IMG/VR virus record: IMGVR_UViG_3300021406_000003
Coordinates: 1 to 55,115 of that record
Source of the DNA: a virus
Strand: one strand, 5' to 3'
DNA length: 55,115 nt
Below the pieces are notes generated by a model. That model had not been told where the DNA came from and ran no database searches. It saw nothing but the letters and a program-made list of their open reading frames with translations. How positions within the stretch are numbered: the first letter of the stretch is position 1; each line of letters begins with the position of its first letter. This document shows positions 1,318 to 13,713 of this stretch, in pieces. The translations under genes were made by a program, and so were the position numbers.

Positions 1318-3147
1318 TTACCACCATTTGCTATCTTCTTCCAAGCTTTCTTCATCCACGTCGCGCTTCTGAAAGCCCGGAAGCCCAGCGCCAACCAACT
1401 CGAAGGGGTCCCACGGGATATCGTCTTCGTCATAATCCAGGGCGGAGAAGTCGTTGGTATCTCCGGGCTCATCGGCTTCAGGGCCAAAGACCTGAGCGCG
1501 AATCCGAAGGAGCACGCAGAGAATCTGAAGCGCGGAAACGAGGTCATCATGGCGTCCGCCTGCCCCTCCGTAGGAACTCGCGTCTCCGTAGCTATCAAGC
1601 TGTTTATAGGTAGACATCTGCGTTACGACTTCCTCATCGGGAATGTCGATGAGGTCATTCTCCACCATGCGGCAGGTGTAGCTCACCATGATCGGCTTGG
1701 TCTTGGCGTTGCTCTCCCAGCCGATCGTGCGCGTCGCGGGAGCTCCGATCTTCACGAAGTCCTGATACCGATACAGCATCGGGTACAGACCCTTCTTGTC
1801 GATGTACGAGCACATCGCAGCACCGGGTCCGGTCCATTCCGGCACGAGCTCGGGCATCGAGACCTTCTCTCCCACGACACCCCGAATCGCCCAGCACAGA
1901 GCCGCCGCAAGTTCCCCGAAGAGAATCGGATTGATGTGCCCTCGCCAGCTCATAATCACTTCGTCCTGGTGAAATTCATTGAGCACGCCAACGAGGAGCG
2001 TTGAAAAGTCGGGGTCCTTGCTATTAGGGTTCCCCTGTCCCACGTCGCAGCAAACGAAGACCCGCTCGTTCTTTTTCGGATACCGAAAAATCTTGAGGTT
2101 CTCGTAGCACCTATCGTTGTCGTGGGGATCGAACCCAGCATCCTGCGCCTCGAGTGCAGTAAGGAGCTGCGGGCGACGTACGAGATCGTGTATGGTTTCC
2201 GTCTCGGCGTCTTTGGGCGAGTCGCCCCAATAGACATCGCCTTCCCAGATCGGAGGGCGGCTCTTATTGATGAGCCTCTTGATCGCCTTGCGCGTAAATA
2301 CACTCACGCCGCTCGTGAGAAATGCTGTGGCCAGGTCTTCAGGGAACTCCTGGCAGAAGTAATCCTCGTCGCCGTTGAAGGTCGGGCCGGCCAGCATCAT
2401 CCGCCGCCAGCGAAGCTGCTCCATGCTGATGTACGGGAAGCGCCGGAGCAGATCGGTCTCTGTAACGGCGAGCGTCTTTGAAAACGCGATACGAGACTCT
2501 TCATCGTCAAAGGGAAGCGCAAAGCTGTACGCCATCTCGTGCCACGGGATGAAGAGCAGGCTCATCTCGCCGTACTGCGTCTTCTTCCGTGAATGCGCAT
2601 CCATGCAATTCTCATAGAACCAAGCACCCTTGCCTTCTTGGCCATTGGGCGTCGACTCTATGTAGAGCGAGGAGTGCGGCTTCTTAGAGATGGTAGGGTA
2701 TAGCGCGCGAAAGAGATTCTCCGCATCGACGTAATACGCGGCTTCGGTCGCGTGACAATTCTGGAATCCGAAGCCAAGGTACGCATCGAGAGAGCGAGCC
2801 GTGGCAACGAGGAGCTTGGAGTTCAGCGGAGGAGCGAACTCGATCCGATCTTTAGGCGGAGAGTTCTTAAACTGCGGTGGAAGCGGCGGACGCACCGGAA
2901 GCAACCCACCCGGTATGAGACTTTCCGGGACGTGCATGTGCTCAGGCATGTGCTCCCAGAAGCGCCGACACATTGCCAGGATGTTCTCGGACGGATTGCG
3001 CTCGTTTGCGAGGATGAGCGAATACGTATTGGGGTGCGTGATCGTGTCGTCGAAGATGATCGACTCGACGCCCGTGGAAAGGCCGGCACGTCGAGCCTTA
3101 CAGATGACGATGCGCACGGGCATACGCCGCTCTTGATACCACTGCAC
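1318..3147 (-). CDS. terL: Terminase large subunit
   Basis: Packaging ATPase and nuclease. The Walker A-like loop KARRAGLST is at residues 17-25 and a Walker B-like acidic pair is in HATEAAYY. The C-terminal nuclease shows an Asp in VFVCCDVGQG and the HDDLV motif near residue 540. The first in-frame start is GTG 3147, but the expected N-terminal adenine-binding region (…IPLRYNEAQIKLY…) is encoded upstream in the same frame to about 3300, with no ATG, GTG or TTG before the preceding TAA. The true product therefore probably begins near 3317 through a frameshift, or the contig has an indel (see findings). Confidence 0.93.
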   Translation of the reverse strand: MQWYQERRMPVRIVICKARRAGLSTGVESIIFDDTITHPNTYSLILANERNPSENILAMCRRFWEHMPEHMHVPESLIPGGLLPVRPPLPPQFKNSPPKDRIEFAPPLNSKLLVATARSLDAYLGFGFQNCHATEAAYYVDAENLFRALYPTISKKPHSSLYIESTPNGQEGKGAWFYENCMDAHSRKKTQYGEMSLLFIPWHEMAYSFALPFDDEESRIAFSKTLAVTETDLLRRFPYISMEQLRWRRMMLAGPTFNGDEDYFCQEFPEDLATAFLTSGVSVFTRKAIKRLINKSRPPIWEGDVYWGDSPKDAETETIHDLVRRPQLLTALEAQDAGFDPHDNDRCYENLKIFRYPKKNERVFVCCDVGQGNPNSKDPDFSTLLVGVLNEFHQDEVIMSWRGHINPILFGELAAALCWAIRGVVGEKVSMPELVPEWTGPGAAMCSYIDKKGLYPMLYRYQDFVKIGAPATRTIGWESNAKTKPIMVSYTCRMVENDLIDIPDEEVVTQMSTYKQLDSYGDASSYGGAGGRHDDLVSALQILCVLLRIRAQVFGPEADEPGDTNDFSALDYDEDDIPWDPFELVGAGLPGFQKRDVDEESLEEDSKWW

Positions 3148-3309
3148 CTTGCTGTACAGTTTGATCTGCGCCTCGTTGTACCGAAGCGGGATGATCTCTC
3201 GCGTATCGGCTTCGAGGATTTTATAGAGCGCCTCGATACGAAAGCGGGCATCAGAACGAAACCGTGCAAGCCGCCGCGCTATCTCCGCATCGACGGCTAC
3301 GTTCGAGGC

Positions 3310-3498
3310 TTAGTCATCTTGGGGGTCTTTCACGAGATTCGAAGATGCTTGGGCCACCTCGGCAAGAGCCTGCAGGCGTTCTGAACTCCCCTCTCCGGTA
3401 TCGAGAATCTTCTCAATCTGCGTAAGGGCTTTGAAGTACACGGAGCGGCTAATAACATCGAGGCGCGCGTCGCCGTAGGTTTGGGCCTTTGTATTCAA
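3310..3498 (-). CDS. Hypothetical protein upstream of terminase (62 aa)
   Basis: Short alpha-helical acidic protein (SVYFKALTQIEKILDTGEGS). Its ATG overlaps the stop of the HTH gene before it, indicating coupled translation. Its TAA is in the same frame as the coding sequence continuing into the terminase. An alternative is a small packaging helper; the family is not recognised. Confidence 0.7.
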   Translation of the reverse strand: MNTKAQTYGDARLDVISRSVYFKALTQIEKILDTGEGSSERLQALAEVAQASSNLVKDPQDD

Positions 3499-3878
3499 GC
3501 GTGGCTTCCTTCTGTGACGGGGGGGACGAACTCTTGCGGGTTGACGATGCCCAAAGAAATTGCGATCGCAACGAGATTGGTTCGATTAAGCGCGTAGAAA
3601 TACCGCATCATCTGCGCGATCTCATTCTCGGTATAGCGCTGTGAAAGCCCGATGATCGGGCCTATGTGCCGGGCACTAAACCCGTGCGCAAGCAACACGA
3701 GAATCGTGCGCCATCGCTTTCCCAGGGGCGAAGATCGGTCGACGACGTTAACGTGATAGCAATCACATCGTTCGCACAATGCGCAGGAGAGACGAAGCCG
3801 AAACCGACTCTCCATTCTCCGGCGTGCAAGCATCGCAAGCTGTTGGGTTTTCCATGCTGCTCTCACGCAAACGCTCAT
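3495..3878 (-). CDS. LuxR-type HTH protein (127 aa)
   Basis: Residues about 65-115 (HGFSARHIGPIIGLSQRYTE … ISLGIVNP) match the GerE/LuxR helix-turn-helix layout: an S-x-R-x-I-G-x-x-x-G-L-S segment, recognition helix, then an xxxAIxxGI tail. The N-terminus has Cys residues (CALCERCDCYH) that could bind metal. It sits beside the terminase genes, so it may regulate late genes or bind DNA in packaging. The gene at 7558 encodes a related domain. Confidence 0.65.
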   Translation of the reverse strand: MSVCVRAAWKTQQLAMLARRRMESRFRLRLSCALCERCDCYHVNVVDRSSPLGKRWRTILVLLAHGFSARHIGPIIGLSQRYTENEIAQMMRYFYALNRTNLVAIAISLGIVNPQEFVPPVTEGSHA

Positions 3879-3943
3879 TGCAGCCCCCTTCTCCAGACGA
3901 AAAGCCGCCGTGCTGCTACCGCACGAGCGGCCCTCTTCGAGGC

Positions 3944-4774
3944 CTACTCATTATCTTCTTCATCACCCGAACTCACCATCTCGGCAACTTGTAAGTCTCC
4001 CAAGCTTACACGCACCGGCTCTCCCGGATCATGAGCCAGAAGCGTAAGAATGTCATTCTTGTTTTGAGGCGCTTCAAGGGGAAGAACCTGCTTCTCTTGG
4101 CTTTGCGTTTCAACCGCTTCCTTTGCATGAACCAGCGAGTGAAGATTGATATGAACATTGGTGCTATTGCCGGTATCCCCCTTAACCCAACCTTCGATCT
4201 TCGCAAGCTGCACCGCTGCCCGAATCGCGGCGTCGTCGGCTCCAAAGCGAGCAATCTTCGTGATACGCGCGATAATCTCAGCCCGCTGCTCGCGAGCCGG
4301 GCGCATCGACTCCTCGACGATCTGAGCCACGCCCTGGGTCCCGATGACGCGGCGCTGAAGCTCTTCGCTAAAGCAGATATCTTCTGGGAACCCGAGCAGC
4401 ATAAGCGCCCGCCGTGGGTCGCCCCACTCGCGCATATAGGCGATCGACGCCATCTCGTCACGCGAACGCTGGGAGCCAAAGCGCTCCCAACTCTCGATAT
4501 CCGTAGGCGCTTTCTTGAGCGCGAGCTGCTCCCGCAGACGGTCGATCTCCTCACGAAGCTCTTTGGTCACGACAGCTTTCCGGCGAGGAGACTTCGCACT
4601 TCCGGCCTTTCGTGCGTGTTCTTTTCGCTCTGCGATAATTTCCGCCCGAGCCTTCTGCGCTTTTACGGGGTCAACGTACGTTGTTATTGCGGTAGAAGCC
4701 ACCGCCCGGGATGGGGGCTTGGTCGGGGATCCCTTCGTTGCCGTGCGTCGTATATTCGCGGTCTTCTTCTGCAT
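3944..4774 (-). CDS. terS: Putative terminase small subunit (276 aa)
   Basis: A basic N-terminus and helix are followed by a central block, about residues 100-200 (MREWGDPRRALMLLGF … AEIIARITKIARFGADDAAI … AVQLAKIEGW), that matches small-terminase organisation: an HTH-like segment recognising alanine-rich helices, then an oligomerisation helix. The C-terminus is acidic (SSGDEEDNE). Location two genes before the large subunit supports the call. Sequence similarity to known TerS families is weak, as is usual. Confidence 0.6.
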   Translation of the reverse strand: MQKKTANIRRTATKGSPTKPPSRAVASTAITTYVDPVKAQKARAEIIAERKEHARKAGSAKSPRRKAVVTKELREEIDRLREQLALKKAPTDIESWERFGSQRSRDEMASIAYMREWGDPRRALMLLGFPEDICFSEELQRRVIGTQGVAQIVEESMRPAREQRAEIIARITKIARFGADDAAIRAAVQLAKIEGWVKGDTGNSTNVHINLHSLVHAKEAVETQSQEKQVLPLEAPQNKNDILTLLAHDPGEPVRVSLGDLQVAEMVSSGDEEDNE

Positions 4775-5078
4775 TCGCTAACCTCTGCGCAAGTAAAGCA
4801 GCGCGCAAATCTTCTTCTGATGGAGCATCATACGGCGGCCTGTGGCGGCTTCCACCATCGCTATGAACCTCGCGAATTTTCTCGACCGCATCACTTGCTT
4901 GATGGAGGATGGATTCTTCGGCATCTGCTTGTGCTCCGTGCGCGCGAGCTTTATGGAGAGCGGCGATGGCTTCGGCCCACCCACGAGCTCCCATTACGGT
5001 CACAAAGAGCACGAAAGCCAGCATCAAAATGCCGCAGAAGAGCAGTAGGATACAAAACACGTCAAACGCATCACTCAT
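4671..5078 (-). CDS. Small membrane-anchored protein (135 aa)
   Basis: One strong N-terminal transmembrane helix, residues about 5-30 (FCILLLFCGILMLAFVLFVT), followed by a charged cytoplasmic-type tail rich in Ala, Glu and Arg. The 3' end overlaps the TerS-like gene by about 100 nt, so the C-terminus is less certain than the N-terminus. Function unknown. Confidence 0.6.
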   Translation of the reverse strand: MSDAFDVFCILLLFCGILMLAFVLFVTVMGARGWAEAIAALHKARAHGAQADAEESILHQASDAVEKIREVHSDGGSRHRPPYDAPSEEDLRAALLAQRLANAEEDREYTTHGNEGIPDQAPIPGGGFYRNNNVR

Positions 5079-5356
5079 AGGGCGTTAAGTTGTTCTAGCG
5101 CATCGCAAAGGCTTATCGGCTCCGGCATCATTTTCTGCGGGGCCTTACGTATGGGATATTGCTTCGGAAGAAATCGGCGTATTATTTTTCCGTTTTCCCC
5201 TCTCACCACTTCCAACTGAACGCGCTCACGGTTTCCGTTGCGATGCGACGTATAGCCGCCCATCGCGTGCATACGTTTGCGCTTATGCGAGGACATCTCA
5301 AGGGCCATCGTCTCACGCCCGCGACGACGGTGCTCCTCGTTCACTCTATGCGTCAT
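5075..5356 (-). CDS. Hypothetical basic protein (93 aa)
   Basis: Arg/His-rich protein (RRRGRETMALEMSSHKRKRM) with a short hydrophobic C-terminus. The start codon overlaps the previous gene and the stop overlaps the next ATG by 4 nt, consistent with translational coupling in the late operon. No family recognised. Confidence 0.6.
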   Translation of the reverse strand: MTHRVNEEHRRRGRETMALEMSSHKRKRMHAMGGYTSHRNGNRERVQLEVVRGENGKIIRRFLPKQYPIRKAPQKMMPEPISLCDALEQLNAL

Positions 5357-5558
5357 CGTTCACCTCTGTCATAAAGTGGTGCGCCGATAGAAAACTTCTC
5401 ACATCCGTATTCCATTCGCCGGTTCTTGGACACAGATATTTTACTTGGTCTCCCCAGCGTTCTAGAATCGTGAACGTCCCTCCGAGTGCCTCAAACCTCT
5501 TCCCGACTTGAATGCTCTCGGGGTCGATGTGCTCATTGCCATAGGTAGGCTCGTTCAT
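5346..5558 (-). CDS. Hypothetical small protein (70 aa)
   Basis: Contains a compact beta-rich segment (VGKRFEALGGTFTILERWGD) resembling small barrel domains found in phage microproteins. A purine-rich GAAGGAAG site lies 7 nt before the ATG. The ATG overlaps by 4 nt the stop of the upstream ORF that contains the tRNA. Function unknown. Confidence 0.65.
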   Translation of the reverse strand: MNEPTYGNEHIDPESIQVGKRFEALGGTFTILERWGDQVKYLCPRTGEWNTDVRSFLSAHHFMTEVNDDA

Positions 5559-5734
5559 TTCCGGCTTCCTTCATACATGGGGTAGCCTGCGGGAGTTGAA
5601 CCCTGCATTCTCGCTTTCACAGAGCGGCGTCCTACCGTTGGACGAAAGCCACCATAACACATCATCGGCAACTGAGCGATCTCCGCCCACATCCGGCATT
5701 CGGCAAGCTCGCAGTGATGAACGGGACAGCTCAT
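5555..5734 (-). CDS. 59-aa ORF that encloses a tRNA gene
   Basis: Open frame begins MSCPVHHCELAECRMW and has ATGA overlaps at both ends with neighbouring ORFs, the signature of coupled genes in this operon. Its second half, however, is the sense strand of a complete tRNA-His, so the codons there may simply be open by chance. A Cys/His-rich N-terminus could bind zinc. Either the ORF or only the tRNA may be functional; both could be. Confidence 0.35.
   Translation of the reverse strand: MSCPVHHCELAECRMWAEIAQLPMMCYGGFRPTVGRRSVKARMQGSTPAGYPMYEGSRK
5578..5653 (-). tRNA. tRNA-His (anticodon GUG)
   Basis: The acceptor stem GTGGCTT pairs with AGGCTAC. The tRNA-His hallmark G-1 opposite discriminator C73 is encoded, and CCA is encoded. 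The D stem GTCC/GGAC is perfect. The anticodon loop is CTGTGAA, with the GTG anticodon, on a CGCT/AGCG stem. The T loop is TTCAACT, with a slightly irregular T stem (one extra A). It is the only ordinary tRNA I can find. It lies sense-oriented inside a coupled mRNA, so RNase P and RNase Z processing would cut the late transcript here. Confidence 0.88.
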
Positions 5735-5874
5735 CGAGCATCAATCCATCTGAGCATCGTGTCGCGCCTCATGCTCAACCACCAAGCCGCGACATCTTCA
5801 CCATCAACTACAACGATCGCGTCTTTCGTCATCTCGCTTGCGTTCATCGTCATTACTCGCCCGTCGCATGTCAT
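5731..5874 (-). CDS. Hypothetical microprotein (47 aa)
   Basis: Starts at an ATG that overlaps the stop of the HTH gene (ATGA) and ends in another ATGA overlap with the tRNA-containing ORF. Contains DAIVVVDGEDVAAWW and a positively charged C-terminus. The double overlap supports reality; function unknown. Confidence 0.5.
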   Translation of the reverse strand: MTCDGRVMTMNASEMTKDAIVVVDGEDVAAWWLSMRRDTMLRWIDAR

Positions 5875-6101
5875 ATCGCGTGCTTATCCCCCAGCTTCCG
5901 CTGATAATATTCCCGAAGCGCCTCCCGCGTGGAAAGCGGCAGCGATGCCTCTCCTCGCTCGTAATCCTCAAGCCAATCCCGCGTCAGGCTCCAGCCGACC
6001 TCTCTCACCACGTCTTCCAAAGAAAGATTGAGCCCAATACGCAGCTCACGCCACCAAGAACGCTGATGATGAACCGCTTGGGGTGCCTCTGCTTGTCTCA
6101 T
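5871..6101 (-). CDS. XRE-like helix-turn-helix protein (76 aa)
   Basis: The segment LRIGLNLSLEDVVREVGWSL … RDWLEDYERGEASLP has the spacing of a Cro/CI-type HTH: an R-x-x-x-x-L-S-x-x-x-x-A/V turn, then the WLxxYERG helix that normally follows the recognition helix. It is coupled to the KGG-repeat gene upstream by a 4-nt overlap. It may control the late operon it begins. Confidence 0.6.
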   Translation of the reverse strand: MRQAEAPQAVHHQRSWWRELRIGLNLSLEDVVREVGWSLTRDWLEDYERGEASLPLSTREALREYYQRKLGDKHAI

Positions 6102-6415
6102 GGATGCTTTTCTTTGAGCGCTTTCTTCCCGGCTTCCAACATCGCTTTAATTTTCGCTCCGCCCTTTTCCCCGATCTTCTGATAGAAATCGGGCGGCTGA
6201 TTCTCTTTTACCTTGTTCCCGCCAATCTTGCCGATGAGGCGGTAGAAGTCGGGTCCCTTCGTGTTCCGAGTGGCAACCCCACCCATAGAACCGATCTTTT
6301 GGTAGAACTCTTTGCCGCGTTGCTTGGTCTTCTCGCCTCCACGGCGACCCGCCTCGCGCGTGGTCATCTCGCCGTACGAGGTCTCATCCTCATCTAAGTC
6401 TGAACTCTCTCCCAT
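6098..6415 (-). CDS. KGG-repeat stress-type protein (105 aa)
   Basis: Contains tandem copies of the KGG (YciG/GsiB-like) motif: EFYQKIGSMGG, DFYRLIGKIGG, DFYQKIGEKGG, plus a degenerate first repeat REAGRRGGEK. In bacteria these hydrophilic, probably intrinsically disordered repeats mark general-stress proteins. Here it is the first gene of the late leftward operon. Its ATG begins 6 nt after a -10 box with no Shine-Dalgarno, so the message is predicted leaderless. Confidence 0.8.
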   Translation of the reverse strand: MGESSDLDEDETSYGEMTTREAGRRGGEKTKQRGKEFYQKIGSMGGVATRNTKGPDFYRLIGKIGGNKVKENQPPDFYQKIGEKGGAKIKAMLEAGKKALKEKHP

Positions 6416-6421
6416 TGCTTG

Positions 6422-6451
6422 AGTCTAGACCAAGCGAGGGTATCTGTACAA
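6422..6451 (-). promoter_or_regulatory. Leaderless promoter of the late leftward operon
   Basis: The -35 is TTGTAC (6446-6451), the spacer is 18 bp and the -10 is TAGACT (6422-6427), followed by exactly 6 nt and then the ATG of the KGG gene. Transcription should start at or next to the A of the start codon. The same -10 to ATG distance recurs at three other genes in this genome. Confidence 0.6.
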
Positions 6452-6459
6452 TCCCCGCG

Positions 6460-6490
6460 CAAAAAGAAAAACCCACATTTTGAGTGCGGG
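6460..6490 (-). terminator. Terminator of the RyR operon
   Basis: On the minus strand a GC-rich stem CCC(G)CAC/GTGGG, with one bulged G, encloses TCAAAAT and is followed by TTTTTCTTTTT. It lies between the RyR gene stop and the late-operon promoter, insulating the two. Confidence 0.65.
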
Positions 6491-6543
6491 CTTTTCCCTG
6501 TGAGAAAAAAGAACCGATGGTATGCTACGCCGACGATCTTTTT

Positions 6544-6921
6544 CTATGAGGCCGGCACTGTCCCTCTATCACCTCTGACAAGCGGCGTGAGCGCATGAAC
6601 GATGCTGGTGAAGATGCTGTCCTTGAGCCTCTGCTCTAGGGGAAGCTGGTCATAAGGAACATAGCATGGATGCTCTTTCTTGTCCGGGTCCTTGATCGGC
6701 CCGTACTTCCAACCATCCTGTGCTTTGCCTTTGAGCCAGTTCTCGTGCGACCCCGAAGGTCCAGCGTTAGGATTCTCGAGATGGAAGAGCACACCGTCGA
6801 TCGCACTCCGGACCTGCCAGGTGGGCGCGTCTTCCCACGCAGGCTGTGAGGCGTCCCCTAGCTCCTGGCAATATGCTCGGTTTGCTTCATGAACAATCCG
6901 AGCGATTCCCGGAATGGTCAT
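6544..6921 (-). CDS. RyR-domain protein (125 aa)
   Basis: Matches the bacterial and phage ryanodine-receptor (RyR) repeat: HENWLKGKAQDGWKYG, then PIKDPDKKEHPCYVPYDQLP, then helices ending IVHALTPLV. The conserved W-x(5)-GW-x-YG and HP-x-x-VPYxxLP blocks are all present. Family knowledge: RyR repeats are proposed nucleotide-ligand domains. It overlaps the Acb2-like gene by 4 nt, so joint action in sensing or sequestering immune nucleotides is a reasonable inference. Confidence 0.78.
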   Translation of the reverse strand: MTIPGIARIVHEANRAYCQELGDASQPAWEDAPTWQVRSAIDGVLFHLENPNAGPSGSHENWLKGKAQDGWKYGPIKDPDKKEHPCYVPYDQLPLEQRLKDSIFTSIVHALTPLVRGDRGTVPAS

Positions 6922-7319
6922 ACCGTGACCCCAATCCTTTCCGTGTGCGCGAGCTCAGGGGCAAGAGGCTCAAGCCGCGGTGCCTCAAACGTAATCGCTG
7001 AGTTCGCGATCATGACGATCTCGTTGAGGTCGGCAGCAAAGCTCTGTACCATGTCCTCAGCGGGGACGAGCGCATCAAGTCGCGTGAGTGCTCTATCACG
7101 CCGGCTCTTTGCATAGTCCGCCAAAGATTCACTTGCGGGAGGCTGCTCGGGAGCTGATTGAACAATCGCATCACGCATCTCCAAAGACGCTTCACGCAGA
7201 GCGAAAAGAGCAAGCGCGGACTTCTTAGCAGCCGCACGAATCGCGTTGCCCTTTAGCACTTGCTCGGGAGACCACGGATGATATTGGAAAATCTCGCTGA
7301 GGTTCTCCGGCGTTATCAA
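6918..7319 (-). CDS. Acb2-like predicted cyclic-nucleotide sponge (133 aa)
   Basis: Starts at TTG 7319, chosen because GGGGAG lies 8 nt upstream. The motif FQYHPWSPEQ at residues 11-20, followed by IRAAAKK, is the N-terminal hairpin of the Acb2/Tad1-type helical family. The second half SRRDRALTRLD … LNEIVMIANSAIT matches its C-terminal helix pattern. Known Acb2 proteins form hexamers that bind CBASS cyclic oligonucleotides and gcADPR. This protein has extra residues between the two blocks and a longer tail. Assignment is by motif memory and needs profile confirmation. Confidence 0.65.
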   Translation of the reverse strand: MITPENLSEIFQYHPWSPEQVLKGNAIRAAAKKSALALFALREASLEMRDAIVQSAPEQPPASESLADYAKSRRDRALTRLDALVPAEDMVQSFAADLNEIVMIANSAITFEAPRLEPLAPELAHTERIGVTV

Positions 7320-7323
7320 GCGG

Positions 7324-7449
7324 TTAGCTCCCCGTAGGATTAGGCGCTGAAGGAGCGGCGGCATCTTCTTTGGGTGCGTCGGCTGGCGGGACGGCGGGAA
7401 TCGCCGCGGTCTCTTCGCCTGGGTCAGGAGTCTTTTCAGTATCGCTCAT
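7324..7449 (-). CDS. Pro/Ala-rich disordered protein (41 aa)
   Basis: MSDTEKTPDPGEETAAIP and onward: low-complexity, acidic and probably unstructured. It is the first ORF of the Acb2-RyR operon and ends 4 nt before the TTG start of the next gene. It could act mainly as a translational coupler. The frame is open further upstream across a terminator-like hairpin, so the start is uncertain. Confidence 0.5.
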   Translation of the reverse strand: MSDTEKTPDPGEETAAIPAVPPADAPKEDAAAPSAPNPTGS

Positions 7450-7473
7450 GGCAGGCAGGATACCGCAGGCCAT

Positions 7474-7512
7474 GAAAAAAGCCCTCGTCGTGTGATTCGG
7501 ATACGAAGGCTT
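7474..7512 (-). terminator. Terminator or attenuator before the Acb2-RyR operon
   Basis: On the minus strand a 10-bp stem AAGCCTTCGT/ACGAGGGCTT (one G-U) with a 14-nt loop is followed by a T run. It is only 25 nt upstream of the leftward operon start. It either stops leftward read-through from the opposing region or attenuates the operon itself. Confidence 0.6.
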
Positions 7513-7557
7513 CGTGTCCACAACGCTCAACTTACTCATCGCAAAATAAGGAGCACC

Positions 7558-7785
7558 GTGCCTGTACCATATCCGCCCGATCCCAAGGAAGTCCTCCTGT
7601 CTGACATGGATCGCCAGGTCATCTTCCTCATCGCCGAGGGCCAGCGCGCCAAGGTCATCGCCGGCCTCCTCAAGCTCTCGCGCAAACAGCTCACGACCAT
7701 CTACGAAGACCTCCGCAAGAAGATCGGAACGCCCTCGTGGACCGGCGTTGCGGTGTGGGCCATCCGAAACGGAGTCATCAAATGA
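7558..7785 (+). CDS. LuxR-type HTH protein (75 aa)
   Basis: Start GTG 7558 chosen for AAGGAG 4 nt upstream. The whole protein is a GerE-like domain: LSDMDRQVIFLIAEGQRAKV, then IAGLLKLSRKQLTTIYEDLR and KKIGT…AVWAIRNGVI, matching the E/D-x-x-V-x-x-x-I-A-x-G, recognition-helix and AIxxGLI signature of LuxR regulators. First gene of the rightward accessory operon, so probable local regulator. Confidence 0.72.
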   Translation: MPVPYPPDPKEVLLSDMDRQVIFLIAEGQRAKVIAGLLKLSRKQLTTIYEDLRKKIGTPSWTGVAVWAIRNGVIK

Positions 7786-8045
7786 GCGTTAACGTCCATA
7801 ACCTACCGATCAACGAAGAACTCACGATGGACGGCCCCGTGAACGTCTATATGCCCGAGGATATCACGATGGGAGTTTTCGGACTCGGGGATGACTTGAA
7901 AGCCCCACTAGTGGTCATTATCGTCGACCACTATCCTCCATGCTGCGTCGCGAAGACCGCAGAGCAATGCCGCCATTGGGCCGCAGACTTCACGCGAGCA
8001 GCAGAAGAACTCGAGAAGCGCGCGAAAGTTGAGGAGCCGAAATGA
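7782..8045 (+). CDS. Hypothetical protein (87 aa)
   Basis: The ATG overlaps the HTH gene stop (ATGA). Begins MSVNVHNLPINEELTMDG and contains a mixed beta/alpha core with VVIIVDHYPPCCVAK, ending in a charged helix. Coupled to genes on both sides. Family not recognised. Confidence 0.6.
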   Translation: MSVNVHNLPINEELTMDGPVNVYMPEDITMGVFGLGDDLKAPLVVIIVDHYPPCCVAKTAEQCRHWAADFTRAAEELEKRAKVEEPK

Positions 8046-8242
8046 CTATTCTTCAGATCGCTGCCGCCCTGGAGATCGGAGGCTTCGGCTTCGATGAATC
8101 CATCGCTATAGCAAAGGGAAGCGGCGCGAAAGTCCCCTCTCTCCGAGAGCAACTCCACATCGCTCGCACAGCGCAAGAACTCCAACGCAGGCGTGCCGAA
8201 GCTCTCGAAGAGATCATCGGGCAGATCGAACGTGAACCGTGA
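8042..8242 (+). CDS. Hypothetical helical protein (66 aa)
   Basis: Predicted all-helical: ALEIGGFGFDESIAIAKGSG then a coiled-coil-like ARTAQELQRRRAEALEEIIG. ATGA overlaps at both ends. Function unknown. Confidence 0.6.
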   Translation: MTILQIAAALEIGGFGFDESIAIAKGSGAKVPSLREQLHIARTAQELQRRRAEALEEIIGQIEREP

Positions 8243-8571
8243 TCCCGGACTCTAAACTCGACGAGCTCCTCGCGCTCGCAACGAACGCTTTGCAATCGCG
8301 TGATATTTGGTATTTATGGAATGAGAATCCGTCCCCCGATGGAGGCAGAGCATCTCGGCTGATTTACGCTGCGGATCCCGAGACTGTCATGCGACTCGTC
8401 GAGGAAATACGCATGCTCCGCCTAGAGCGGGATGAAGCAAGGACCGAGATCAAGCGTCTCATGCACCTAGCGATGGAGATGAATAAGGAACTTAGCGCCT
8501 ACCACCAAGCAGAAAGACCCCCAGAAAAAATTTCTCAGGGAGCAGAAGGAGACCCCAAGCCGACGCCGTAG
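8239..8571 (+). CDS. Hypothetical protein with coiled coil (110 aa)
   Basis: GTG start overlaps the previous stop (GTGA). N-terminal helical region, then a long amphipathic helix PETVMRLVEEIRMLRLERDE continuing for about 45 residues, likely a dimerising coiled coil. Common architecture of phage early proteins of unknown role. Confidence 0.6.
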   Translation: MIPDSKLDELLALATNALQSRDIWYLWNENPSPDGGRASRLIYAADPETVMRLVEEIRMLRLERDEARTEIKRLMHLAMEMNKELSAYHQAERPPEKISQGAEGDPKPTP

Positions 8572-8578
8572 ATACACC

Positions 8579-8690
8579 ATCGCGAGACGACCGCTCGACG
8601 GAGCGCCGATCTCGGAAAGGCTTGTGGGCGCATCGGCGTCCTTACCACAAGCGGGATGTCGGTAGCCCAGAGTCCAGTCGCTCGCGCGAT
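8579..8690 (+). ncRNA. Pseudoknotted structured RNA of unknown family
   Basis: An outer helix ATCGCGAG (8579-8586) pairs with CTCGCG(CG)AT (8681-8690). Inside are hairpin CGCTC-GACG-GAGCG (8592-8605) and an 8-bp stem GCTTGTGG/CCACAAGC (8620-8627/8645-8652). The loop of that stem contains ATCGGCG (8632-8638), complementary to CGCCGAT at 8604-8610, forming an H-type pseudoknot partly competing with the first hairpin. A strong terminator follows 4 nt later. It occupies the only sizeable gap in this operon. I do not recognise it as a known riboswitch or ribozyme. Confidence 0.62.
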
Positions 8691-8693
8691 TTC

Positions 8694-8723
8694 ACTCCCT
8701 CGGGATACCTAGAGGGAGTTTTT
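8694..8723 (+). terminator. Rho-independent terminator after the pseudoknot RNA
   Basis: Perfect 8-bp stem ACTCCCTC/GAGGGAGT with a 10-nt loop, followed by five T. It would end the upstream transcript or release the structured RNA. Confidence 0.85.
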
Positions 8724-8787
8724 CTTGCCAAGTCCATCACGAAAACAAGCACACGGGTACGGCTACGGCAGCGGACGAGGCTCCGCC

Positions 8788-8991
8788 ATGACCAAGCAGT
8801 TCAACGAGAACATGGCCAAGCCGCCAAGCGAAAGACCCTACCCCTTCCGCTCATCCGACTCCCCCACCCCATCCGGGAGACAGTGCTACGGCCTCTCAAG
8901 CCTCTCCGATTGGCAAGTCCTCACCCTCATCGCCGTCGCCATGTACCTCATCCACGCCATAGCCATGAAGCTCGGATGCAACTGCCCATGA
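8788..8991 (+). CDS. Small single-pass membrane protein (67 aa)
   Basis: Start MTKQFNENMAKPPS chosen for a GGACGAGG purine stretch upstream. The C-terminal transmembrane helix is LTLIAVAMYLIHAIAMKLG, preceded by a polar segment. An ATGA overlap connects it to the next gene. Function unknown; position after a terminator implies its own promoter or read-through. Confidence 0.55.
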   Translation: MTKQFNENMAKPPSERPYPFRSSDSPTPSGRQCYGLSSLSDWQVLTLIAVAMYLIHAIAMKLGCNCP

Positions 8992-9278
8992 AGATACGCC
9001 TCGATTCCGGCACCGTGCTCGACGTCGACCATGAGCTTCGTCTCGCAAGCGCAGCAGATCAATGGAAGCTCGTAGCAGTTCTTCAGGCCCTCCACGCAGC
9101 CCTTAGCGTGCGCACTAAACACGGTCCCCCATACCCCGGCGTAGTCGATGCGATAAACGAAGTGCTCGATAACCACGGCGACTCCGAGGACATCGGAGAT
9201 GCGTGCTATTTGCATGGGCGTTCGTCCATGCGGCAAGCCGTCCGCCAAGCCGCAGGCGTCGTCGAGGAAGGCTCATGA
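8988..9278 (+). CDS. Hypothetical protein (96 aa)
   Basis: Begins MKIRLDSGTVLDVDHELRLA, a beta hairpin followed by helices, acidic overall. The start overlaps the previous stop and its own stop overlaps the next ATG, so the start is well supported. No known family. Confidence 0.65.
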   Translation: MKIRLDSGTVLDVDHELRLASAADQWKLVAVLQALHAALSVRTKHGPPYPGVVDAINEVLDNHGDSEDIGDACYLHGRSSMRQAVRQAAGVVEEGS

Positions 9279-9487
9279 CCTTCCCCCCCGGCTCCATCCT
9301 CACGCACCGCAAAGGCGGCACCTACACCGTCATCCTCACCCCTGACCTCTGCACCCTCGAGGAAACCCGCGAGCCCGCATACGCCTACCTCGCCCAAAGC
9401 ACCGGCAAAATTCACGTCCGCCGACAATCGGAGATGGAAGACGGGCGCTTCCGGCGTCTCAAAGAAGCGCAGGAGCCTCAGAGATAG
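9275..9487 (+). CDS. DUF1653-like small protein (70 aa)
   Basis: PGSILTHRKGGTYTVI, then a middle strand with AYAYLAQSTGKIHVR, fits the DUF1653 pattern (PG-x-x-x-x-H-x-K-GG-x-Y, later Y-x-x-x-x-TG-x-x-x-VR), a compact beta domain frequent in phage and plasmid genomes and of unknown biochemical role. Last gene of this rightward run; its end overlaps the convergent winged-helix gene by 29 nt. Confidence 0.65.
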   Translation: MTFPPGSILTHRKGGTYTVILTPDLCTLEETREPAYAYLAQSTGKIHVRRQSEMEDGRFRRLKEAQEPQR

Positions 9488-9875
9488 CTTTCTGGTATCC
9501 GTTGCCATTTCCATACAGACCAAACCGAGGATTGAGCCGGTACAAATGCCCCGCTCCTATTCTTCCCCCACGTAAGATAACGTTTCTTCGTAAAAGCTGC
9601 GTTATCGCCCGCGAAACACCCTGTTGCTTTAACCCGAGCGCCTTCCCTATCTGCGCCTGGGAAGTCACCGCGCATCCGTTCCCAACGCGCGTCTTCGAAA
9701 CCAAATAGCAAAGCACACGCAAGCTCTCCCCTCGTAACACCTTATCCCTGGCAGCCTTGTCCAAAGCCCCCTGGAATACCATCACAAACGGCGGCAGGGG
9801 ACTTTTTCTCCTCGAAGAAGCACCGTCCTCAACGACCTCATACGTCGTCGCGTCGATCTCAATCGTCTGGTTCAT
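9459..9875 (-). CDS. RepL/MarR-type winged-helix protein (138 aa)
   Basis: LRVLCYLVSKTRVGNGCAVT, then SQAQIGKALGLKQQGVSRAI and a winged beta hairpin GGRIGAGHLYRLNPRFGLYG give a typical MarR-like or RepL-like winged helix. The FVMVFQGALDKAARDK lead-in resembles plasmid RepL initiators. Start ATG 9875 has GAGGG 4 nt upstream; GTG 9893 is possible. Two palindromes lie just upstream, suggesting autoregulation. Either a transcription factor or a replication initiator; no other replication gene is visible in the genome. Confidence 0.65.
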   Translation of the reverse strand: MNQTIEIDATTYEVVEDGASSRRKSPLPPFVMVFQGALDKAARDKVLRGESLRVLCYLVSKTRVGNGCAVTSQAQIGKALGLKQQGVSRAITQLLRRNVILRGGRIGAGHLYRLNPRFGLYGNGNGYQKAISEAPALL

Positions 9876-9887
9876 TTCGCCCTCATA

Positions 9888-9938
9888 CAACACCCACTAC
9901 AACACGGGTGTTGTACTGTTACTACACATAGGTAGTAA
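9888..9938. promoter_or_regulatory. Twin operator palindromes before the winged-helix gene
   Basis: CAACACCC (9888-9895) with GGGTGTTG (9906-9913), and TTACTAC (9919-9925) with GTAGTAA (9932-9938), both perfect inverted repeats in the promoter position of the leftward winged-helix gene. Such spacing fits a dimeric winged-helix regulator. Confidence 0.6.
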
Positions 9939-9939
9939 A

Positions 9940-10573
9940 GCCTTTCACGACACGAAACGCGCTTTCCCTTTATTCATACCGGAAAGATTCGCGCTCTTCT
10001 CCTTCATACTACTCCGCCCTCTTATTCTTATATACCTTATACGCGGAGGCACTCCGCAGTGAAGCCGTAGGCGTAACGGAATACCAAGCAACCCATTCAC
10101 TACTCTCAACTCGCCTCAGAAAAAATCTCTGCGCAAATTTTCACCGGGGGCACTAGCAAAGGGTGAAGATCATCCCCCACACCGCCGTAAGCCAGGGGTC
10201 ACCGGGTTGTCGTCGGCGATCGTCGTCGGTGCGCTGCGGGAGTGCGTCGTGCTTGGTAGGTGTTGCTTGTTTGCGAAGGGGGTGGGCGTGGCACGGGGCC
10301 GGCGTTGGGCGGTGCGGATGCTGGCCTTCAGGGTGCCGTCGGGCACCGTGGGGGCTCTCCTTAGCGGAGGTCGCCACCAACGGCATGGGATGCCATGGCA
10401 CCGGCGCACACAGCTACGACAAAAGACATGGCAGAGAGAGCAGGAAGGGGCTAGGATGTGTGTAGGGGGATGTGGTAATCCCTCGCTTACGAGTAGCTTT
10501 GGCCGGATCCTGGCGTATTGGCTGTGGTTTAGGCTTGGCTGTCGTTGTATGCTATGAATAGGAGCTTAGTGGT
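9940..10573. other. Long non-coding region, possible origin or control region
   Basis: No convincing ORF on either strand; open frames here give Arg/Cys-rich unlikely proteins. The left part holds an AT-rich stretch (about 10019-10050) followed by hairpin GCGGAG-GCA-CTCCGC. The right part is very G-rich on the plus strand and contains hairpin GGTGCC-GTCG-GGCACC and palindrome TGCCATGGCA. By eye the G/C strand bias changes sign near 10150, compatible with a replication origin or a recombination junction. Confidence 0.45.
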
Positions 10574-10735
10574 ATGAGAGACGTATACGTGCGCGTTGCG
10601 CGAGCGCGCATCGAGTTGGATGAGATTTCGGCTGCGGTGTGGAGACTGCAGACGGCGAAGGATGTGGAGGGACTAGCAGATGGTCGGTATCGGACGTATA
10701 CGATTTTGGTGCCGTCGCGTGAGGCATGCGTATGA
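10574..10735 (+). CDS. Hypothetical microprotein (53 aa)
   Basis: Begins MRDVYVRVARARIELDEISA, preceded by TAGGAG about 9 nt before the ATG, and ends in an ATGA overlap with the next gene. Basic helix plus beta hairpin. First gene of the G-rich rightward block. Confidence 0.55.
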   Translation: MRDVYVRVARARIELDEISAAVWRLQTAKDVEGLADGRYRTYTILVPSREACV

Positions 10736-10950
10736 TCGTCGATATCCGGCAGAGTATCGGACCTCATGTGAGCCTTGGGACGTTTTGGCTTGACTTGCTG
10801 GAGCGCAAGATTGCTCAGTATGCGCGTCGGCCGGATCCCGGCGTGACGTTGATTTCCACGGGGCTTGATCGACATCGTCGGCCTCGGGTACGTATTGATC
10901 GAGAACCTGGGCGTATGTATATCGACGCCACGTCGCCTATTGAGCGATGA
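10732..10950 (+). CDS. Hypothetical protein (72 aa)
   Basis: MIVDIRQSIGPHVSLGTFWL begins at an ATG overlapping the previous stop. A C-terminal DRHRRPRVRIDREPGRMYID looks like beta strands. The stop codon is one base before the first hammerhead ribozyme. Family unknown. Confidence 0.6.
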   Translation: MIVDIRQSIGPHVSLGTFWLDLLERKIAQYARRPDPGVTLISTGLDRHRRPRVRIDREPGRMYIDATSPIER

Positions 10951-10951
10951 C

Positions 10952-11016
10952 GGCTTCGCCTGAAGAGTCTCAGCGTGTCGGTTGAGACGAAACGGCCTTG
11001 AGGCCGTCGCGGAATC
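10952..11016 (+). ncRNA. Hammerhead ribozyme 1 (type I)
   Basis: All core elements are in order. CTGAAGA (10960-10966) is followed by stem II GTCTCA/TGAGAC, then GAAA (10989-10992), then stem III CGGCC-TTGA-GGCCG closed by the A-U pair, then the H17 cleavage base C at 11008. Open stem I is formed by CTTCGC upstream with GCGGA downstream, including a G-U. Predicted cut between 11008 and 11009, in the leader of the next gene, 54 nt before its ATG. Confidence 0.88.
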
Positions 11017-11062
11017 CGATTCCGTACTTTACTTTCTCTCATCTCTAGGAGTATTTCAGACC

Positions 11063-11395
11063 ATGTCTATTCCAGCTTCAGCGGCCAAGCTTGCTTCGGC
11101 TGACCACGGATCTCATGGGCAGCCGGGCAGTGGTGCTACGCAGCGCAGCGCCAGCGTATGGCGTCTCATTTCCGGGAAATTCGCGTGTCAAGTGCGGGAG
11201 CGATCCGGCAGTAATCAGGGATACATCGAATGGCATCACGAGCGCGAGGTAATATACCGCCACGCATCCCTAGATGAGCTCCTTGCCGTTGCGCTATCTG
11301 AGGAGAGCGTCCCTGAGATCAGGGCCGCGATTCGGGAAGCGATTGGCGATGCGGAGGATGCGATGGACGCGGCATCTACGTCCCAGACCGCCTGA
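11063..11395 (+). CDS. Hypothetical protein bracketed by hammerheads (110 aa)
   Basis: Begins MSIPASAAKLASADHGSHGQ with AGGAG upstream. A Ser/Gly-rich N-terminus leads into a compact domain WRLISGKFACQVRERSGSNQ … HASLDELLAVALSEE and an acidic helical tail. Its stop codon is part of the conserved CTGACGA core of the second hammerhead, so the ribozymes would release an mRNA of about 443 nt carrying exactly this gene. Function unknown. Confidence 0.65.
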   Translation: MSIPASAAKLASADHGSHGQPGSGATQRSASVWRLISGKFACQVRERSGSNQGYIEWHHEREVIYRHASLDELLAVALSEESVPEIRAAIREAIGDAEDAMDAASTSQTA

Positions 11396-11455
11396 CGAGG
11401 CTAGGCTGATCGGCCTAGCCGAAACCGGAACGCTTGCGGGCGTTCCTGGTCGCGG
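11388..11455 (+). ncRNA. Hammerhead ribozyme 2 (type I)
   Basis: Stem I strand CCGC is followed by core CTGACGA (11392-11398), an 8-bp stem II GGCTAGGC/GCCTAGCC, GAAA (11421-11424), then stem III CCGGAACGC pairing with GCGTTCC(T)GG, then GTC with cleavage base C at 11451, and the returning stem I strand GCGG. It shares CGCGGAATCCGAT around the cleavage site with ribozyme 1 although stems II and III differ, so both core and fold are conserved. Confidence 0.88.
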
Positions 11456-11510
11456 AATCCGATCTTCCATCGAGGTTCTTCGCCGCCTTGCGTAACCGGC
11501 TAGGCGCGTT

Positions 11511-11543
11511 GCTCCCCCTGTGTACTCCTATTCCGGGGGGAGC
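11511..11543 (+). other. GC-rich hairpin in the gap after hammerhead 2
   Basis: GCTCCCCC pairs with GGGGGGAGC across a 16-nt loop. No T run follows directly, so it is not a clear terminator. The roughly 140 nt between the ribozyme and the next ATG show nothing else I can name. Confidence 0.4.
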
Positions 11544-11593
11544 GACGAGGTGCTTTTGGTTGGTAGGAATAGGGTGTTAGGAGTGCTTCGCTT

Positions 11594-11851
11594 ATGTATA
11601 CCGTGACGAACTTCCGCACGAAGAAGGCGCTGAAGGATGCGCTGATCGCAGGCAAGCGTGTGGAAGTGTACCAGCCCAACGGAGATATCTTTGGGCGCGC
11701 ACCGCAAACAGAGGGGCGCGTGGCGATCGAAGGGCCGCATTATCCCGAGCCTCACCGTTGGTATGCCGAGGCGATCATTGCTGGCGGCGTTATCGTTTCT
11801 CTCGACGGGAAGAGCGTTGAGAAGATGCGCGCGAAGGCGGCTATATCATGA
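11594..11851 (+). CDS. Hypothetical small beta-domain protein (85 aa)
   Basis: MYTVTNFRTKKALKDALIAG, then KRVEVYQPNGDIFGR: a short helix and a beta-rich core ending SLDGKSVEKMRAK, typical of phage accessory microproteins. AGGAG lies about 11 nt before the ATG; the stop overlaps the next ATG. Confidence 0.68.
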   Translation: MYTVTNFRTKKALKDALIAGKRVEVYQPNGDIFGRAPQTEGRVAIEGPHYPEPHRWYAEAIIAGGVIVSLDGKSVEKMRAKAAIS

Positions 11852-11946
11852 GCCGATTCGCTGCGTCAAGCTTTGGCCGGGAATGTGGCCAAGCGTACTT
11901 GCGCGAGAACGGGTTCGCAGTACACGACATAGGGGAGACTTCGTGA
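11848..11946 (+). CDS. Hypothetical microprotein (32 aa)
   Basis: MSRFAASSFGRECGQAYLRE, starting in an ATGA overlap with the upstream gene and ending in a GTGA overlap with a possible next ORF. Too short for family assignment; overlaps on both sides support translation. Confidence 0.45.
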   Translation: MSRFAASSFGRECGQAYLRENGFAVHDIGETS

Positions 11947-12251
11947 GTTCCTCTGCGCGCGGGCGCGTAGGCGCGCGGGAGGCTTTGCGGGCTGCGAGCT
12001 TGCGCTTGCCGCTTCCTGGGCAGCTCTCGCTCTTGGAGGAGTATGCGCTTTCCGGGGCCTTTTTCACACTAACCTTCAGGAGTTTTTCCGAGCTATGCTT
12101 ACTGCTTTGCCTGCTGCCGTTCCTCCCAGCTCTCCTGAGATCGAGAAGGCCAAGGCTGCCTGTGTGGCATACTTGCCAACGATCGAGCGGACTTCGCCTG
12201 GCGACGGCGGGGCGCTCAAAGTGCCCTTTGGGGGCTCGTACGTTCGCGTGA
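11943..12251 (+). CDS. Doubtful ORF (102 aa)
   Basis: GTG start overlapping the previous stop, giving MSSSARGRVGAREALRAASL and a Leu-rich C-terminus. The last 157 nt overlap the next, better supported gene in another frame, so at most the first 50 codons are plausible. The 11947-12094 stretch otherwise holds only the hairpin-prone GCGCGC…GCGCGC segment. Confidence 0.22.
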   Translation: MSSSARGRVGAREALRAASLRLPLPGQLSLLEEYALSGAFFTLTFRSFSELCLLLCLLPFLPALLRSRRPRLPVWHTCQRSSGLRLATAGRSKCPLGARTFA

Positions 12252-12349
12252 CGTGCTACCACCGCGCTGACGGAGAGCTTGTCGTCAAAGTTACTCGCCC
12301 GCACCGGGTTCGGCATTACCACCTCGTTTTTTCGGAGACGCAACCATGA
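12095..12349 (+). CDS. Hypothetical protein (84 aa)
   Basis: Starts MLTALPAAVPPSSPEIEKAK with AGGAG upstream. C-terminal half forms beta strands (YVRVTCYHRADGELVVKVTR). Stop overlaps the next ATG. Unknown family. Confidence 0.65.
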   Translation: MLTALPAAVPPSSPEIEKAKAACVAYLPTIERTSPGDGGALKVPFGGSYVRVTCYHRADGELVVKVTRPHRVRHYHLVFSETQP

Positions 12350-12792
12350 TGACGCTGTGCGATCTATGCCGTTCCCCTGAGCTTGATGCCGCTAAGGATG
12401 CGTGCCACTCCGCACGGATAGCCGCTCACGAGGCCGCGAATATCGCCGAGGAGCACTTGCAGCGGATGCGCCTGGAATATCATCTCGTCTTCGACCGATT
12501 GCATCGGGAGCATCCACACCCGTATACGGAGACGCACCCGAAGGCGAGTGAGGAGTTTGCCTCTTGGATGAAGGCCCCGCATGCAGAGCTCATAGCCGAG
12601 CTTCACCGGCGGGGATATGGGGACTTCGCCGCTTGGTGCGGGGCAAATAACGCGCGCGTGAATTATGCTTTGCAGCTCTTGGAGGCCGCAGAGCTTCTCG
12701 TTTGCGGAAAGTGCGGGCATCGGCCGCTGCTCACGATTTTACAATCGCAATCTACGCTCGGGCCGACCCCGCCGCCGGAGAAGCGCGCATGA
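12346..12792 (+). CDS. Zinc-binding helical protein (148 aa)
   Basis: N-terminal CDLC and C-terminal CGKCG can jointly coordinate a metal, bringing the ends of a long helical region (HSARIAAHEAANIAEEHLQR) together. Overlaps both neighbours by 4 nt. The role is unknown. Confidence 0.62.
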   Translation: MMTLCDLCRSPELDAAKDACHSARIAAHEAANIAEEHLQRMRLEYHLVFDRLHREHPHPYTETHPKASEEFASWMKAPHAELIAELHRRGYGDFAAWCGANNARVNYALQLLEAAELLVCGKCGHRPLLTILQSQSTLGPTPPPEKRA

Positions 12793-13172
12793 GTTACACG
12801 CCCGAGGAGATCGAGTCCGCGCTGACCGAGGCGAAGGCCCTACTGCGCCATCGCCACGGGGACAACCGCCGCGCGCTAGTCGAGATTATCGAACAGCTCC
12901 GAGCCGACTTACGGCACATGGATAGCGAGCGCGCTTTGGCAGGGGATGAAGCGCAGCATTGGGCAACGCGGGCGATGCGAGCGGAGACCAAACTCGAGCA
13001 CGCCGAGCAACAGCATGCGAAACTGATTGATGCGCTCGAGGCCATTCTGGAGATTCCTAGACCTCGAGAGGTGCAAGGGGACACTGCATTCGCCGTTATC
13101 GTGAACGCGCGGAGCGACGGCTACAATCTCGCTTTGGATGCCGTGCGCGCCGCCGCGAAGGCGCACGAGTGA
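12789..13172 (+). CDS. Coiled-coil protein (127 aa)
   Basis: Start MSYTPEEIESALTEAKALLR overlaps the previous stop. A long charged heptad region (ATRAMRAETKLEHAEQQHAK) predicts a coiled coil, then a short domain SDGYNLALDAVRAAAKAHE. Frequently seen in phage operons; function unknown. Confidence 0.65.
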   Translation: MSYTPEEIESALTEAKALLRHRHGDNRRALVEIIEQLRADLRHMDSERALAGDEAQHWATRAMRAETKLEHAEQQHAKLIDALEAILEIPRPREVQGDTAFAVIVNARSDGYNLALDAVRAAAKAHE

Positions 13173-13540
13173 AGCGCTTCGCCACGCTTGATGATCTGTA
13201 CGCGGCCATTCCGCCGACCGCGTGCAAGGGGCTCTGCTGGGAATCGTGTATTGCCGGCGTCCGCGCGCACCCCGATGAGCACGAGCGCATGCGTAAGCTA
13301 GCCGAGAACCGCCCGACGGTCGCGAAAGTTGGACATGGGCAATGCCGTTATCTCACGCTCGAGCGGCGCTGCTCGGTGTACGAGGCGCGTCCGCTCATCT
13401 GTCGGCTGTATGGTGCGATCGAGAACTCGCAGATCGGATGCGAGCATGGGTGCTGCGATGAGCCGCTCGTCGAGGCCGAGAGCTTCGAGCTCATGAAAGC
13501 GTACGTTCTGTTGCGTTCCGGGCAGTACGAGCCGATCTAG
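13169..13540 (+). CDS. YkgJ-type cysteine-cluster protein (123 aa)
   Basis: CKGLCWESC near residue 19, then CRYLTLERRCSVYEARPLIC and a C-terminal CEHGCC, reproduce the YkgJ/CxxCxxCC family pattern, including RC-x-V/I-YE-x-RP-x-x-CR. These proteins bind zinc or iron; no reaction is established. GTG start overlaps the upstream stop. Last gene of the rightward block; it faces the Ro cassette. Confidence 0.78.
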   Translation: MKRFATLDDLYAAIPPTACKGLCWESCIAGVRAHPDEHERMRKLAENRPTVAKVGHGQCRYLTLERRCSVYEARPLICRLYGAIENSQIGCEHGCCDEPLVEAESFELMKAYVLLRSGQYEPI

Positions 13541-13608
13541 TGCCCGGTGAGCGCGTGGTACGCCGTGGCGGCCGCTGCGAGGTACAGGAGAACGATGACC
13601 ACGCTCAA
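13537..13608 (-). CDS. Possible tiny membrane protein (23 aa)
   Basis: TTG start overlapping the preceding stop (TTGA); MSVVIVLLYLAAAATAYHAL is one transmembrane helix. It is paired with the 20-aa ORF just upstream. A similar tandem of tiny membrane ORFs occurs at 21816-21988. It lies past the TROVE terminator, so expression is uncertain. Confidence 0.3.
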   Translation of the reverse strand: MSVVIVLLYLAAAATAYHALTGH

Positions 13609-13667
13609 TGCCCCGCGTTGAGGCGCATGAGCACGTACAGAGCTGCGAAGACGCCTAGAGCTACCAT
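13605..13667 (-). CDS. Possible tiny membrane protein (20 aa)
   Basis: MVALGVFAALYVLMRLNAGH: a hydrophobic helix with a basic end, coupled by overlap to the 23-aa ORF. Plausible but too short to prove by reading alone. Confidence 0.3.
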   Translation of the reverse strand: MVALGVFAALYVLMRLNAGH

Positions 13668-13713
13668 GAGCTCGAGCGTACGACGCTGAGATTATGGGGT
13701 GATGAAGACCACA

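Follow-up and report, generated by a model that had tools for sequence, protein, structure and literature searches.

Hammerhead ribozymes (HHRs) leave a 2′,3′-cyclic phosphate and a 5′-OH at the ends that they create. When present as direct repeats, they give rise to circles in viroid-like RNAs and retrozymes. Phage transcripts are also processed by other means: in the early genes of T7, RNase III sites at gene boundaries cut polycistronic RNA into pieces with hairpin-protected ends. The arrangement closest to the one described here was reported by Perreault et al. (2011), who found tandem hammerheads flanking single prophage genes and proposed that they process gene-length mRNAs. In their work, tandem prophage hammerheads cleave in vitro, the Agrobacterium triple cleaves in E. 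coli, and a search of similar arrays for circles or spliced RNAs found none (PMC3088659). The paper also describes loop pseudoknots in all three hammerhead types, as well as the HHphage ribozyme upstream of the helicase gene of Halovirus HF1/HF2, where the transcript 5′ end lies within 3 nt of the cut (PMC3088659). Circle-forming hammerhead elements are covered in a further source (PMC7761336). The role of prokaryotic hammerheads is treated as an open question in a 2017 review (PMC6155905).

Here we analyze a whole IMG/VR record of 55,115 bases (hereafter the window), a tailed-phage contig with genes for a terminase, a major head protein, and a P22-like portal. Its two hammerheads point in the same direction and surround a likely phage gene, as in clusters of prophage hammerheads, which consist of at least two such ribozymes around a phage gene. 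The window shares with the clusters of Perreault et al. the tandem hammerheads around a single gene, but differs in being a new phage with an orphan gene. It resembles HF1/HF2 in having a hammerhead just ahead of a phage gene, whereas that system, as described in the same source, is a single variant hammerhead in an archaeal virus. As with the RNase III sites of T7, phage RNA would be cut at gene boundaries to give hairpin-protected ends; there, however, a host protein cuts, whereas in the window the RNA would cut itself. Likewise, retrozymes and viroid-like circular RNAs are units bounded by hammerheads, but those described in PMC7761336 replicate or retrotranspose as circles, while the window holds a protein gene in a DNA phage operon with no circle indicated. 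The arrangement is already known from other phages; what deserves follow-up is its layout across the family.

Results and Discussion

The two hammerheads and their genes

Both hammerheads are on the + strand and were identified by direct reading, by a script, and by a covariance model, R1. Copy 1 (10955-11013) has the core CTGAAGA (CUGAAGA in RNA; 10960-10966), the strand GAA-A, an 8-bp stem II (10967-10988) closed by G10967-C10988, a 6-bp stem III (10992-11007), and a 5-bp stem I (UUCGC/GCGGA). Copy 2 (11387-11456) has the core CTGACGA (CUGACGA; 11392-11398), a 9-bp stem II (11399-11420) closed by G11399-C11420, and a 4-bp stem I (CCGC/GCGG); its stem III (11424-11450) has 5 bp, or 10 if counted beyond a one-base bulge. 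Each copy combines the CUGANGA and GAAA core of type I hammerheads with an NUH cleavage site (GUC in both cases) and three helices, of which stem I is open-ended. The cores are 432 nt apart, and GTCGCGGAATCCGA is common to both copies. Cuts are predicted after 11008 and 11451. The original prediction had described complete cores, a G-C closed stem II, and a GUC site in each copy, with these same cuts releasing an RNA of 443 nt (11451 minus 11008); direct reading and the script reproduced all of this, coordinates included.

The RNA between the cuts holds an ORF of 110 aa (11063-11395, +), as had been proposed, though its status as a gene is likely rather than shown. Its ATG, at 11063, is 54 nt past the copy 1 cut and is preceded at a distance of 11 nt by AGGAG (11047-11051, +), a likely ribosome-binding site. 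Its TGA (11393-11395) supplies U4-G5-A6 of copy 2, which bears out the claim that the stop codon forms part of the second core. We call it a likely gene only, because it has no homologue in the viral-contig and phage collections searched, no match in protein-family searches, and a weak codon score: at -0.003, this is the best of the six frames but lies under the 5-95% range of the long genes of this phage (0.079-0.276). An alignment-free fold model of the protein (mean pLDDT 54.9) was too poor for use.

Further ORFs lie on either side. The upstream ORF (74 aa; 10726-10950, +) has no family match and three weak partial relatives. Its stop, TGA 10948-10950, falls 12 nt ahead of the copy 1 core, so the stops of the window are offset by -12 (copy 1) and +1 (copy 2) from the respective cores. 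Past the copy 2 cut, the first convincing gene begins after 142 nt and encodes a widespread phage protein of 85 aa (11594-11851, +) with 56 relatives and a good codon score. A strong predicted stem-loop with no T-run directly after it (11508-11546, +) separates copy 2 from this gene. A search for sigma-70-like promoters across 9800-13800 gave none.

Validation of the hammerhead assignments

A search for the core pattern gave two matches in the window and none in 100 shuffles. R1, the covariance model, was constructed from 35 hammerheads of other contigs, with the window pair left out. It nevertheless retrieves copy 2 at 48.0 bits (E 5.4e-8) and copy 1 at 42.7 bits (E 6.7e-7), E-values that are rough, and nothing else in the window up to E 10. 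In the R1 alignment, 98.1% of cells pair compared with 80.7% after shuffling, and the covariation score is 0.371 compared with 0.088 for shuffled and at most 0.064 for slid alignments. The constancy of stem I GCGG is no evidence, since the search pattern had fixed this sequence in most R1 rows.

The Rfam scan suggested alongside the original prediction gave a divided answer. No hammerhead in the window reached the gathering score of 34 bits; copy 1 appeared below it (RF00163, 23.6 bits, E 0.012), and copy 2 was unlisted. We read this shortfall as the limited reach of the model rather than as absence, because R1 finds both copies independently of the window. Rfam was therefore dropped as a sole test, being insensitive for these copies.

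Folded together with its flanks, neither copy has the hammerhead as its minimum-energy structure. The modelled share of the active fold, computed with the pseudoknot left out, is at its maximum 6-10 nt beyond the cut (150 hammerheads) and is near zero at about 18-20 nt. This fall is no proof of a designed switch, because shuffled tails fall too; a designed co-transcriptional window may exist, but the rise alone is specific.

A tertiary contact may form between loop II and the stretch 3′ of stem I; the complementarity is good for copy 2 and weak for copy 1. In copy 2, loop II GATCG (11408-11412) has the predicted pseudoknot partner CGATC (11460-11464, +), and this complement is equalled by 0.4% of the tails and 3% of the loops in the family. 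In copy 1, the possible partner of loop II GTCGG (10977-10981) is CCGAT (11016-11020, +), which is weak alone, the complement being equalled by 9% of family tails and 12% of family loops. Across 278 hammerheads, the mean for loop II against the stretch after stem I was 3.94, compared with 3.32 (sd 0.05) for shuffled partners. The loop II complement was also examined in a stricter set of 207 that included the two window copies.

Close relatives of the phage

Relatives identified through the capsid protein (n = 15, many of them fragments) contain a hammerhead-like element only in two contigs, G005 and G006 (elements at L294 3923-3984 and L295 3724-3785). The two elements are identical and retain their helices, but their core reads CTAAAAA. 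Hammerhead catalysis needs the core G5, so this element is probably inactive. The regions around it have no ORF in common with the window contig. The nearest relative, with 99% capsid identity, is 10.8 kb only and without the region. We also gathered 69 loci (543,661 bases) via three genes near the pair rather than for hammerheads, and R1 detected none in them at E up to 0.05.

Distribution and layout of related ribozymes

Pattern scans recovered at least 119 matching stretches in viral collections and at least 118 in genome collections; the genome matches listed include Clostridia, Paenibacillus, cyanobacteria, and acetic-acid bacteria. As tens of chance matches were estimated for the first search pattern, only structurally confirmed ones were kept. 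The structural scan yielded at least 309 non-redundant hammerheads in 195 loci, compared with two in one shuffled copy of all loci. Conservation of the core or of the stem I sequence is no evidence, since the scan patterns demanded both, while the upstream stops and the downstream sequence were unselected. The layout counts below treat related sequences as independent and drop, from the 309, hammerheads near locus ends (leaving 295, 299, 285, or 308).

The ribozymes tend to follow the ends of genes and precede the starts of others. ORFs of 60 or more codons end at -15 to +1 of the core in 192 of 295 hammerheads, compared with 20.1% of control CTGA sites, and in 98 of the 295 the TGA within the core itself serves as the stop (805 of 5499 controls). 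A Shine-Dalgarno sequence and start codon are found within 110 nt past the cut in 174 of 299, compared with 249 of 1495 random places; the start is mostly 25-50 nt away. In the sense direction, both features accompany 116 of 285 hammerheads and at least one accompanies 235, whereas in the antisense direction the corresponding numbers are 0 and 24. Fifty of the 285 have neither a near stop nor a near start. Where one hammerhead follows another, 65 of 122 intervals are taken up by a single ORF, compared with 12.2% of control intervals.

The layout extends to the 5′ end of the downstream product. The RNA released in the window is predicted by folding to start with a 7-bp hairpin (11009-11025, +), and this hairpin and stem I are mutually exclusive, because the 5′ arm of the one is the 3′ strand of the other. 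In the family, an exact complement to the opening 4 nt of the 3′ product occurs among the following 22 nt in 180 of 309 cases (11.1% shuffled), and structure prediction pairs nt 2-4 in 209 of 308 products (vs 34.8%). The copy 2 product is without the exact form of the hairpin and is predicted to fold from nt 3.

Records chosen mainly for several hammerheads (n = 15) hold between 1 and 16 each. The extreme is a phage contig (G023; L289) with 16 in approximately 8 kb (2219-10275). An upstream stop precedes the cut at all 16, seven times at the core TGA, and a start lies 29-46 nt past the cut at 15. A motif, CTGCAATGGAGA, recurs ahead of many start codons of this contig. We were unable to assign a common function to the genes bounded by hammerheads: Pfam names two of ten proteins from the 16-copy array region (DNA ligase, DUF6011), and PADLOC names none of nine, three of which are from that region.

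Stop-codon fusion, a hairpin at the product 5′ end, and an array of 16 copies were not found in the available portions of Perreault et al., whose main text nowhere contains the term "stop codon" (PMC3088659). A term search found "hammerhead" absent from the main text of a 2024 paper on a phage theta ribozyme. Titles and abstract openings of later literature, a sample with few subscription journals, yielded nothing recognizable on stop-codon fusion or long phage arrays.

Proposed function

We consider it likely that the transcript of a phage operon is processed at the two hammerheads, which cut it between genes. The cores, helices, intergenic placement, and recurrence of the layout in hundreds of relatives are evident at the level of sequence. 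From these we infer that cutting takes place in the cell and during transcription, and that the new ends would set mRNA life or translation. Each ribozyme would fold as RNA polymerase passes and then cut where one gene gives way to the next. On the upstream side, the message would end with its stop codon, two ribozyme hairpins, and a 2′,3′-cyclic phosphate; on the downstream side, the message would begin with a 5′-OH, usually within a hairpin, and carry a ribosome-binding site and start codon of its own beyond it. The 110-aa gene of the window would be set apart from its neighbours as an mRNA of 443 nt. The original prediction had the mRNA either cut out of its operon or circularized. The former is favored by ribozymes that occur in the sense direction only, with a stop fused to them, a start past the cut, and one gene per unit; the latter went unsupported.

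The position of the stops could also mean that cutting is gated by translation, which we regard as unlikely. Ribosomes at the core stop would hold the ribozyme open, such that cleavage would signal or restrict translation of the upstream gene. The core UGA does serve as the stop in copy 2 and in a third of relatives, and the hairpin that excludes stem I is widespread. In copy 1 and many others, however, the stop is just before stem I and outside the core, and the compactness of phage genomes alone could place stops there.

Still less probable is that a unit-length RNA released by the pair is closed into a stable circular mRNA, either by reversal of the ribozyme or by an RtcB-type ligase. Direct repeats make circles in viroid-like RNAs and retrozymes, and circularization is possible in principle because the product ends match: with the shared segment in both copies, they could rebuild a hammerhead. 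The predicted structure points the other way. The 5′ end of the 443-nt product pairs locally, with per-base probabilities of up to 0.98, and has less than 1% predicted pairing with the last 75 nt in a model that leaves out pseudoknots. A search of the contig for an RtcB ligase gene found none, though a host ligase or a low yield could escape this analysis. Among records chosen for a lone hammerhead, 23 of 24 hold exactly one at E 0.001, which, in a sample chosen for loneliness, shows merely that lone hammerheads exist; they count against circles because one hammerhead cannot excise a unit. In 23 lone-record loci with 25 hammerheads (two loci have two), 15 of the 25 have a stop at -15 to +1, here for ORFs of at least 50 codons. 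The negative search for circles in similar arrays, reported by Perreault et al., weighs against this reading as well (PMC3088659).

It is similarly improbable that the ribozymes are remnants of mobile or recombining cassettes, with near-identical junctions allowing gene swaps and cutting of little importance: the unit is absent from loci gathered via neighbouring genes, and the broken core with intact stems in G005 and G006 indicates that helices can outlive catalysis, but elsewhere cores are conserved alongside compensatory changes in the stems, a pattern suggestive of selection for cutting, though the search patterns, by requiring intact cores, account for part of this conservation.

Returning to operon processing, a broader version can be put forward tentatively, and we think it somewhat doubtful as a whole. 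Hammerheads fused to or abutting the stop codon of each gene would constitute a strategy that crosses lineages: they would cut within a short kinetic window, after which the 5′ hairpin would capture the stem I strand, make the cut irreversible, and cap the mRNA. Some phages would use them at nearly every gene junction, as in the array of 16 in 8 kb, in place of protein-based processing. If true, some phages process whole operons by RNA alone, and hammerhead parts might be used as small insulating elements when operons are engineered. The regular layout makes one role testable, as stop, ribozyme, product hairpin, and next start occur in a fixed order.

Other features of the contig

The window encodes a TROVE/Ro60-like RNA-binding protein (13776-15284, -; PF05731, phrog_850) with ten relatives in viral contigs. 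Beside it are two weak matches to YrlA, a Y RNA-like RNA (15178-15291 and 15327-15423, -), with scores of 30.8 and 25.2 bits (cut-off 69) and folds no stabler than shuffles. Together, gene and matches may constitute a Ro60-Y RNA module of the phage, in which tRNA-like RNAs stand in tandem. The contig also carries a gene for a TerC-family membrane protein (16176-17117, -; PF03741, phrog_7180) and a single tRNA-His gene (5578-5652, -).
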